From the NCBI GenBank assembly GCA_017640665.1, contig JAEPQE010000004.1, positions 186,001-250,000 of the forward strand: a stretch of DNA of 64,000 bases, read 5' to 3'. The first letter of the stretch is position 1. Every line of letters starts with the position of its first letter. This DNA is from Balneolaceae bacterium. GTDB lineage: Bacteria > Bacteroidota > Rhodothermia > Balneolales > Balneolaceae. Under the pieces are notes generated by a model, which was not told the DNA's origin, searched no databases, and saw nothing but the letters and a program-made list of their open reading frames with translations. Of the stretch, positions 9,437 through 11,513 are shown piece after piece. A program made the translations under genes and the position numbers.

Positions 9437-10321
9437 ATGAGCTTTAAATATATCATCAAAGAAGGTTTTGCAGGAATTCGGCGAGCTAAACTCGCAGCAA
9501 CTACCTCTATCTTTTCGTTATTCATCGCGATTCTTTTGCTGGGGATACTCTCAAGAGTCGGATACAATGTGTATGTACAGGCGATGTCGATTAAGGATTT
9601 GATCGAGGTGGAAGTCTTCTTGTTTGATATAGACGAACGCACTACAGACGAAATTGAACGTCAGCTTAGAGCAGAAGAAATTGTGTTGGAAGCTACTTAT
9701 ATCTCGAAAGACAGTGCGTCTGCAATTATGAGACAGGAATTTGGTCCTGGAGTAGAAGAGCTGGTGGATTTAAATTTTTTACCTGCTTCGTTTAAATTGA
9801 AAGTAGATACCGAAGCAGGAGCTTCACAAATCGAAACGCTTGTTTCCAGCATTCAGAATTTACGTGGTGTGGATGAAGTGCAATACAACGAAGGATTGCT
9901 TCGAATAATGGAATCTAATTTAAACACTTTTTCTCTGGTTGGAGGAGGTATAGCTTTGTTGATTTTGCTCGCTTCAGTAATTCTGGTCTACAACACCATT
10001 CGCCTTACTATTTATGCCAAACGTGAGTTGATTCGGGCAATGAAGCTGGTAGGAGCTACAAACAGTTTTATTCGCAGTCCGTTTATTATAGAAGGAGTAC
10101 TTCAGGGTGTTCTCTCCGGACTAATGGCGGTAACTTGTGTATTTTTCATCTTTGAATTTGTGATCCCACTTTACCTTCCTGAAATGGGATTACTTTCTTG
10201 GCCCTTTGGGAGCTGGTACTTCCTAACCGGCGCTATGTTTGGTCTTGCCGTTCTGATGGGATGGTGGGGAAGCCGCCTCGCAGCCCGTAAGTTTATCGAG
10301 GAGACGTATATTTCTGGATAA
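9437..10321 (+). CDS. ftsX: Cell division protein FtsX-like permease
   Basis: FtsX is the membrane half of the FtsEX complex, which in many bacteria relays ATP hydrolysis to peptidoglycan hydrolases at the septum. The 294-residue product has one N-terminal helix (about 22-42), an extracytoplasmic domain (about 55-165) and three C-terminal helices. The cytoplasmic motif AKRELIRAMKLVGATNSFIRSPF is interrupted as in FtsX/MacB permeases. The ATG lies one base after the upstream stop. ftsE is not adjacent, which is common in this branch. Confidence 0.9.
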   Translation: MSFKYIIKEGFAGIRRAKLAATTSIFSLFIAILLLGILSRVGYNVYVQAMSIKDLIEVEVFLFDIDERTTDEIERQLRAEEIVLEATYISKDSASAIMRQEFGPGVEELVDLNFLPASFKLKVDTEAGASQIETLVSSIQNLRGVDEVQYNEGLLRIMESNLNTFSLVGGGIALLILLASVILVYNTIRLTIYAKRELIRAMKLVGATNSFIRSPFIIEGVLQGVLSGLMAVTCVFFIFEFVIPLYLPEMGLLSWPFGSWYFLTGAMFGLAVLMGWWGSRLAARKFIEETYISG

Positions 10322-10356
10322 GTTCGTTAATCGTTATTTGTTAATGGTTATTGGCT
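10322..10356 (+). repeat. Left 7-bp tandem repeat, degenerate
   Basis: Directly after the ftsX stop come five 7-base units: GTTCGTT, AATCGTT, ATTTGTT, AATGGTT and ATTGGCT. They are variants of ATTCGTT. The same unit occurs in reverse orientation on the other side of the following small gene (10984-11011). Confidence 0.7.
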
Positions 10357-10998
10357 ATGTCAATTTTTAATAAAGCAGCGACACATTTAATATTTATAGG
10401 ATTAATTTCTATTGCTAATTATGTGTTTGCTGAAGAAAGCACTGCTCACATAAATTGTGAGCAATATGAGCTCGTAAATCAATTACGAGCTGCTTTTGAA
10501 GAACAAATTTCTAAAGTATATAAGATTGAAGAGCAATCTGATGTGTATTCAAAGTTTTTGAATTATATGTCATTTGATCCTAAGATTAATTCATGGATGG
10601 TTCAACTAAGTAGAGAGACTATTGTAGATAGTTTGATAAGTCATACAAAATTTGACTCTATCTGGACTAATAAGAATCCTCAACCTGAAGATATTCTAAT
10701 GGAAGTTGTAGTTGTAGGAGAAGAAGTTGAGGAACCAGAAATATGGGATGTAGATACAGAAAGCGATTACTTTAGATGTTTGATGAATACTAAAGTTGAA
10801 TTGCTAAGTGAGTTGTTGGTAGATACTAAAAATATAGGTGGGTTCTTAAGTCCAAGAATTATTTCATCATTATTAACTGAAAGGTTAAAAGAAGTGGATT
10901 ATAATGATAGGGAGCTAAGAAACTTCATATCAATCAATCTTTACTTTACAACATTGATTAACCTAAATTTAACAGAGGGTTGGACGAATAACGAATAA
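10357..10998 (+). CDS. Small AT-rich exported protein of unknown function
   Basis: No family recognised. The likely start is the ATG at 10357, giving MSIFNKAATHLIFIG and so on; a TTG two codons earlier is in frame but lies inside the repeat. The product is about 213 residues with a signal peptide ending near VFA-EE. It is mostly charged and helical and contains an acidic cluster (VVVGEEVEEPEIWDVDTES), a few cysteines and no clear motif. Base composition is visibly more AT-rich than ftsX or fur. The last four codons (TNNE) and the stop are encoded by the right-hand 7-bp repeat. The gene fills the entire space between the convergent ftsX and fur genes, which suggests an inserted islet. Confidence 0.65.
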   Translation: MSIFNKAATHLIFIGLISIANYVFAEESTAHINCEQYELVNQLRAAFEEQISKVYKIEEQSDVYSKFLNYMSFDPKINSWMVQLSRETIVDSLISHTKFDSIWTNKNPQPEDILMEVVVVGEEVEEPEIWDVDTESDYFRCLMNTKVELLSELLVDTKNIGGFLSPRIISSLLTERLKEVDYNDRELRNFISINLYFTTLINLNLTEGWTNNE

Positions 10999-11011
10999 CG
11001 AATAACGAATA
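10984..11011 (-). repeat. Right 7-bp tandem repeat, four exact copies
   Basis: Four perfect copies of ACGAATA on the plus strand (TATTCGT on the minus strand). It is the inverted counterpart of the degenerate ATTCGTT units at 10322-10356. It ends one base before the stop codon of the fur-family gene. Confidence 0.85.
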
Positions 11012-11012
11012 G

Positions 11013-11513
11013 CTAATTAACCAAACTTCCTTTCTTCAAACCAGCCTTTCTCTTATCACATGCTTCTTTATCCTCGCAGGTTCCATAAAAATGCAGAGAG
11101 TGGGATTCGATATTCATACCGTGAATTTTGCCCAGCATTTCCTGGATTTCACCAATACGAGGATCACAGAATTCGAGTACGTGTCCGCATTCGTTGCAAA
11201 TAATGTGATCGTGCTGTTGATAAGCGTAAGCGCGTTCGTAATAGTACTGGCTCTTTCCGAATTGCTGTTTCTGTACCAGCCCGCATTCCACTAATAAATC
11301 AAGAGTATTGTACACAGTAGCGCGACTTACACGAGTTCCTGCTTCCTGCATCCGAAAAAAGATGTCGTCAGCATCAAAGTGCCCATCTGCTCTGTAAATC
11401 TCTTCCAGTACCATGAAACGTTCTGGAGTCTGACGTTGGTTTCCTTCCTTTAAGTAAGAGCGGAAAATCTCTTTAACAAGTTGAATAGTATCTTCGTGTG
11501 CCGGGTGTGCCAT
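11013..11513 (-). CDS. Fur-family metal-responsive repressor
   Basis: Fur-family dimeric regulators use metal (Fe, Zn, Mn) or peroxide sensing to control transcription. The 166-residue product has the winged-helix motif TRVSRATVYNTLDLLVECGLV at about 60-80. Metal-site residues lie in HDHIICNECGH (H101, H103, C106, C109, H111). A second cysteine pair, C146 and C152, is separated by five residues rather than the usual two to four. It resembles Fur more than PerR or Zur, but the metal cannot be assigned. It is convergent with the small gene upstream and divergent from the acyl-CoA synthetase. A -7 element TATATTTG lies 20 bases upstream of its ATG. Confidence 0.9.
   Translation of the reverse strand: MAHPAHEDTIQLVKEIFRSYLKEGNQRQTPERFMVLEEIYRADGHFDADDIFFRMQEAGTRVSRATVYNTLDLLVECGLVQKQQFGKSQYYYERAYAYQQHDHIICNECGHVLEFCDPRIGEIQEMLGKIHGMNIESHSLHFYGTCEDKEACDKRKAGLKKGSLVN

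Follow-up and report, generated by a model that had tools for sequence, protein, structure and literature searches.

What kind of unit is the small, low-GC gene that lies between ftsX and fur with short inverted tandem repeats on either side, and how did it come to be there? The locus is found in the window, by which we mean the whole 64,000-nt stretch of a Balneolaceae genome (here G000) that was analysed. We describe its layout, its state in related genomes, its divergence relative to its neighbours and the occurrence of similar frames around other genes. Our reading is that it is probably an islet, a non-autonomous single-gene mobile unit composed of arm, gene and arm, inserted flush between the ftsX and fur stops.

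LAYOUT AND CARGO OF THE ISLET

An earlier note on this DNA had proposed that two inverted heptamer arrays and one gene fill the entire ftsX/fur gap, and its coordinates were confirmed (Table 1; gene calling simply took the longest ORF). The islet starts at the base following the ftsX stop (10319-10321), and a single G (11012) separates the right arm from the fur stop (complement CTA, 11013-11015). On the plus strand the left-arm units read TTCGTTA ATCGTTA TTTGTTA ATGGTTA TTGG (10324 to 10355), and on the minus strand GCCAATA ACCATTA ACAAATA ACGATTA ACGAACT (10321-10355). The cargo ORF runs from an ATG (10357) directly after the left arm, with TTG 10351 as an alternative start, to a TAA (10998) inside the right arm. 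Its last codons are repeat sequence (ACG AAT AAC GAA TAA), as had been claimed.

Table 1. Features of the islet and its flanking genes, in window coordinates
Feature	Coordinates	Strand	Basis
ftsX, left flanking gene	9437..10321	+	Pfam FtsX_ECD 1.1e-13, FtsX 8.8e-10
Left arm, degenerate heptamer array (ACNAWTA on minus strand)	10321..10355	-	Pattern scan
Cargo gene, 213 aa, probably exported, no known family	10357..10998	+	ORF call, two homologs
Right arm, exact (ACGAATA)4, inverted relative to left arm	10984..11011	+	Overlaps last codons of cargo
fur-family gene, right flanking gene	11013..11513	-	Pfam FUR 6.6e-29

The heptamer arrays are not due to chance. A perfect fourfold heptamer, observed once in the window, appeared in none of 60 simulated 64-kb windows, and ACNAWTA arrays, observed twice, in none of 40. 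The inverted-repeat score of the cargo flanks (40) exceeds that of all 2619 shuffled pairs (maximum 38), and by this score the gene ranks second of 655 ORFs. The window arms form a duplex of -30.3 kcal/mol, against -14.5 +/- 3.2 for shuffles, and in each of six islets the arm duplex beats all 300 shuffles.

The GC content of the cargo gene is 30.4% (GC3 23.4), atypical when compared with its neighbours ftsX (42.0%) and fur (43.3%). The description of its product as an exported orphan held, with export only probable: the protein has an N-terminal hydrophobic segment, and it matches no family in Pfam, NCBIfam, PADLOC or PHROGs, its only Pfam signal being FtsL_2 (E 0.014, below the cut-off). Comparison with the PDB gave no meaningful match, and an AlphaFold model of the cargo (three sequences) was uninformative (mean pLDDT 33.7). 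By Pfam profile search the islet carries no transposase, as had been stated, and the cargo lacks PF05635; there is no Rfam match in the islet. The dN/dS of about 0.34 between the cargo homologs of two Balneola genomes (G018 and G036) suggests that the cargo is under coding constraint.

THE ftsX/fur SITE IN RELATIVES

Of 67 genomes, 65 yielded an FtsX. Thirty of the downstream regions were then read, and in 21 of them fur is the next gene. Several junctions among the regions read are empty (5-30 bp), including those of G035 (8 bp), G101 (5 bp), G008 (10 bp), G048 (13 bp) and G023 (15 bp), and these are the empty sites with near-adjacent stops that mobility had led the earlier note to expect. 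In G014, G052 and G057 the gap is just 66-81 bp and contains hairpin-like words.

The filled gaps are framed in six of eight cases, with scores of 27-42 (window 38, G002 29, G026 42, G018 38, G036 42, G028 27; null P(>=28)=0.00025), and no frame of the heptamer kind was found in the filled gaps of G001 and G011. What lies inside the frames differs. A different gene, of 180 aa, occupies a frame of the same word in G002, a member of the window's genus, and the two Balneola genomes have cargo homologs (46-48% identity) framed by another inverted heptamer, GAATTAG/GAATAGG. Other contents are found within the inverted frames of G028 and G026. The G026 gap (L073, 1294 bp) contains several non-coding units of ~200 bp in tandem, in a heptamer frame of AAGGAGT words.

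Conservation of the gene between ftsX and fur in relatives that lack the repeats had been named as evidence against mobility, and a different pattern was found: the cargo gene is present in 3 of 98 relatives, and its homologs are heptamer-framed. Alignment of G000 with G002 by blastn shows chromosomes that can be aligned as far as the arms and differ between them, the alignment ending inside the arms (C4 196335 and 196984). The majority of the strain-variable gaps between these two genomes have no heptamer frame.

All homologs of the window cargo lie at ftsX/fur, and for the two alternative cargos 92 genomes gave no clear homolog at any other site, so that no transposition of this cargo to a new address is demonstrated. 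Neither a target-site duplication nor an excised or circular form of the islet was seen, nor an integrase; the empty sites are too diverged to define a duplication.

LATERAL HISTORY OF THE ISLET

The two Balneola genomes allow the history of the islet to be compared with that of its flanks. Between G036 and G018 the pS of the islet gene is 0.205, as against 0.50-0.86 in nine neighbouring genes. Along ftsX and fur pS is 0.44-0.99, high to their last codons. The arms are 95-100% identical and most of the islet 95-99%, while the flanks are mostly 70-90% identical, and the fall in identity occurs at the ftsX and fur stop codons. Even the non-coding arms, which would be expected to drift fastest, are nearly identical. 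Low pS in the islet and high pS in the flanks show that the common history of the islet is younger than that of the flanks, with borders at the stop codons, and this divergence contrast supports lateral movement of the islet as a unit. Both genomes are metagenome-assembled; chimeric assembly is unlikely, since the islets lie within long contigs and are less than 100% identical.

Within the cargo gene pS is 0.05-0.10 in the first 120 codons and 0.36-0.46 thereafter. The cargo is thus mosaic, which suggests that its C-terminal part has been exchanged or diversified. The last third of the gene in this pair (L051/L052, codons 120-200) has a pN of about 0.2, far more diverged than the remainder.

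Could ordinary homologous recombination have produced this pattern, with a neutral ftsX/fur locus exchanged via its conserved flanks and the heptamers incidental? That the cargo homologs share one locus would fit, and the mosaic indicates that recombination does occur within the cargo; the lowest pS of the neighbours, 0.50, is that of fur, next to the islet. However, pS declines toward the islet from neither flank and identity shifts at the stops, and frames recur around unrelated cargo at ftsX/fur and around genes of the IVP family elsewhere. We consider recombination through the flanks unlikely as the explanation. The proposal of a non-autonomous mobile islet, made in the earlier note, is instead supported by the empty sites, the other framed genes, the GC content and the synonymous divergence.

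THE FRAME AROUND OTHER GENES

In a family-blind test, the best-framed of the 655 ORFs belonged to the IVP/S23 family (PF05635); it lies next to a comM-like gene of the Mg-chelatase type and is flanked by GAATNNN heptamers. PF05635 genes reach 15 per genome in the family. With a framing threshold of 30, set by eye from null distributions, inverted frames were found at 32 of 48 IVP loci, which were sampled as best-scoring matches and not at random (19/26 in the family, 13/22 in the wider phylum). Period 7 was seen in 23 of the 32 framed loci; about a third of IVP genes are unframed at this threshold. Among control small ORFs 9 of 417 were framed, and at least five of these nine are mobile or islet genes (two IVP genes, the window cargo, the G002 cargo and one Y1_Tnp transposase gene).

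Other islets of the window genome carry PF05635 genes, one of which (C1:1372312) has units of the window word on both sides. Such genes, along with the G002 gene that has the window's site and word, supply the further heptamer-framed genes that had been looked for. Strict co-orientation of the cargo with the upstream gene was considered as a rule and dropped (19/29 IVP genes; both orientations occur).

In four genomes the islet at the comM site begins right behind the stop. The word is GAATTAC in G000 and GAACATT in the other three, yet the arms of each islet still match each other. For G000 the arm score is 48 within the islet versus 18-26 across species; for the other three, within-islet and cross-species scores overlap. 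From the G000 islet and the ftsX/fur frames, on which the case therefore mainly rests, it appears that arm words drift between species yet stay complementary within an islet. This joint change is the most unusual feature, and it would imply either a copying step between the two ends or selection for pairing.

The same behaviour bears on the suggestion that the left array is a decayed copy, which we regard as unproven: the arms drift jointly, and the existence of exact arrays points to re-expansion. Like the long exact arrays described below, the right arm has the look of recent homogenisation, and the pair is not simply one intact and one decayed arm.

THE HEPTAMER WORD ACROSS THE GENOME

The scan for frames covered some 773 kb of the G000 genome and 400 kb of that of G002. 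The ACVAWTA word has 89 matches genome-wide in G000, compared with 5 for a reversed-pattern control. Twelve compact hairpins of ACNAWTA units have no cargo; in each, a minus array precedes a plus array. A stop codon lies within 7 bp of an edge in eight of them, and such hairpins are found near starts as well as stops. A word-free scan of the 773 kb gave most arrays at period 7, and many such inverted pairs are present in other members of the family as well.

Exact arrays of 9, 16 and 13 heptamers occur at C1:91149-91211, C1:100714-100825 and C3:185863-185953 of G000. They are intergenic with no obvious inverted partner nearby, and are possibly slippage expansions or half islets. Other words were seen in the same genome: an intergenic CACCTAT heptamer (G000:C1:55687-55721), and repeated ATCCAAC heptamers at the beginning of a predicted coding sequence (G000:C4:261760-261783), an indication that such arrays can be translated. 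Because several words occur in one genome, the idea of one telomerase-like template for all heptamers was set aside.

Two further explanations take the arms or hairpins themselves as the primary objects. In the first, the arms are cis elements (translation control, a terminator or an RNase III stem) serving expression of the neighbours or the cargo, not mobility. TAACTGA repeats of Beggiatoaceae lie just upstream of starts (PMC4679880), much as the window cargo ATG stands directly behind an array; RNase III cuts the stems of 23S intervening sequences (IVS) (PMC4990558), and the islet arms do form strong duplexes. But these arms are gained and lost together with the islet, being missing from empty sites, and the positions of the cargo-less hairpins, near stops and starts, also count against it. 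In place of mobility such a function seems improbable, though a regulatory or processing role could exist in addition to it.

In the second, the hairpins are interspersed palindromes of the REP/REPIN kind, moved by a REP-associated tyrosine transposase and occasionally trapping genes. The twelve cargo-less hairpins share the minus-then-plus layout, and the framed Y1_Tnp gene among the control small ORFs, in G002, has palindromes of its own; those palindromes (CGAAGGGTTGAAACCCTTCG), however, are unrelated in sequence to the heptamers. REPs are sequence-constant, whereas heptamer words vary between islets of one genome, and trapping fails to explain the strong link to IVP genes. We hold this account to be more improbable again. 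The Y1_Tnp gene (L179:17380-17820) is IS200-like, and with its palindromes resembles a REP/RAYT arrangement in the window's own genus.

Had the gene been inherited vertically from a common ancestor of Balneola and the window genus, with repeated losses and with heptamers arising independently by slippage, the common site and orientation of the cargo in three genomes would be accounted for. This is very improbable and was already disfavoured: genera whose FtsX is more similar to that of the window than Balneola FtsX is (g10, g13, g4, g18) lack the gene, which argues against simple descent, and in the Balneola pair cargo dS is 0.24 versus 2.1 for ftsX.

PROPOSED MECHANISM

For the mobile single-gene islet that we favour, the following scheme is proposed. 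The paired arms would fold into a stem, either as single-stranded DNA or as RNA, by analogy with the terminal inverted repeat of the 23S rRNA IVS, which forms a stem around the S23 ORF. The stem would serve as the recognition feature for an activity, of mobility or of processing, that the cell provides from outside the islet. By landing beside a stop codon the insertion would spare the neighbours, and one cargo could be exchanged for another inside the frame. The heptameric form may arise by slippage, and a process acting between the arms, in which one is copied from the other or pairing is selected, would keep them complementary as the word drifts; complementarity could also be kept by a function of the transcript rather than by mobility. 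IVP/S23 islets, which have the same kind of frame, are candidates for the helper family. The enzyme that moves the islet is the least certain part of the scheme.

These islets may belong to a general class in Bacteroidota, although we advance this only tentatively and think it somewhat doubtful: miniature gene-carrying mobile elements defined by inverted tandem-heptamer arms instead of fixed termini, with IVP/S23 islets as the standard form and orphan-gene islets as non-autonomous riders. Small 'hypothetical' genes between conserved Bacteroidota genes mostly go unexplained, and the frame would then show which of them are mobile cargo. It also offers a direct test, in that the two arms, though free to vary in sequence, should vary in step.

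COMPARISON WITH KNOWN SYSTEMS

No description of heptamer-framed single-gene islets was found in the literature covered, which took in few subscription journals. Several known systems share parts of the design. MITEs and IS elements similarly have short inverted termini around a non-autonomous unit, but for the islet no fixed terminal sequence or target duplication was seen, and no transposase partner in a search that covered the islet itself. REP/BIME/REPIN sequences with their RAYTs are likewise interspersed intergenic palindromes, and a framed transposase gene was seen here too; the islets differ in their variable words, their arms of 7-bp tandem arrays and a cargo that is not a transposase. 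PDDEXK_3 (GxxExxY) genes of the same family (L219-L248) have similar inverted frames in 18 of 29 sampled cases, but with longer, non-heptameric arms, and are possibly a sister class of single-gene units.

The TAACTGA heptamer repeats of Beggiatoaceae, Cyanobacteria and some Bacteroidetes are direct, with one inverted case, and have been given a regulatory reading; slippage at 7-nt units is quoted for them (PMC4679880). Like the window arms they are AT-rich intergenic heptamers that have a TAAC core and often stand immediately upstream of a start codon. Slippage of this kind accounts for expansion and not for inverted pairing, and the window arms, unlike those repeats, flank a laterally moving gene as an inverted pair.

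Closest among known kinds is the 23S rRNA IVS with its S23 ORF, known from Coxiella and Leptospira, whose terminal inverted repeats form a stem cut by RNase III and which has been called a selfish element (PMC4990558). Both have one small ORF within stem-forming terminal inverted repeats, and S23/IVP is what the islets found here most often carry. The window islet differs in being intergenic, beside stops and not inside an rRNA, in having arms of inverted tandem heptamers with variable words, and in carrying a probably exported orphan rather than S23. Because location and cargo differ we do not claim IVS membership, and regard the window islet as an intergenic variant with unrelated cargo. The puzzle of the 23S rRNA IVS, how it moves and what S23 does, would thereby be extended to many comparable intergenic copies.
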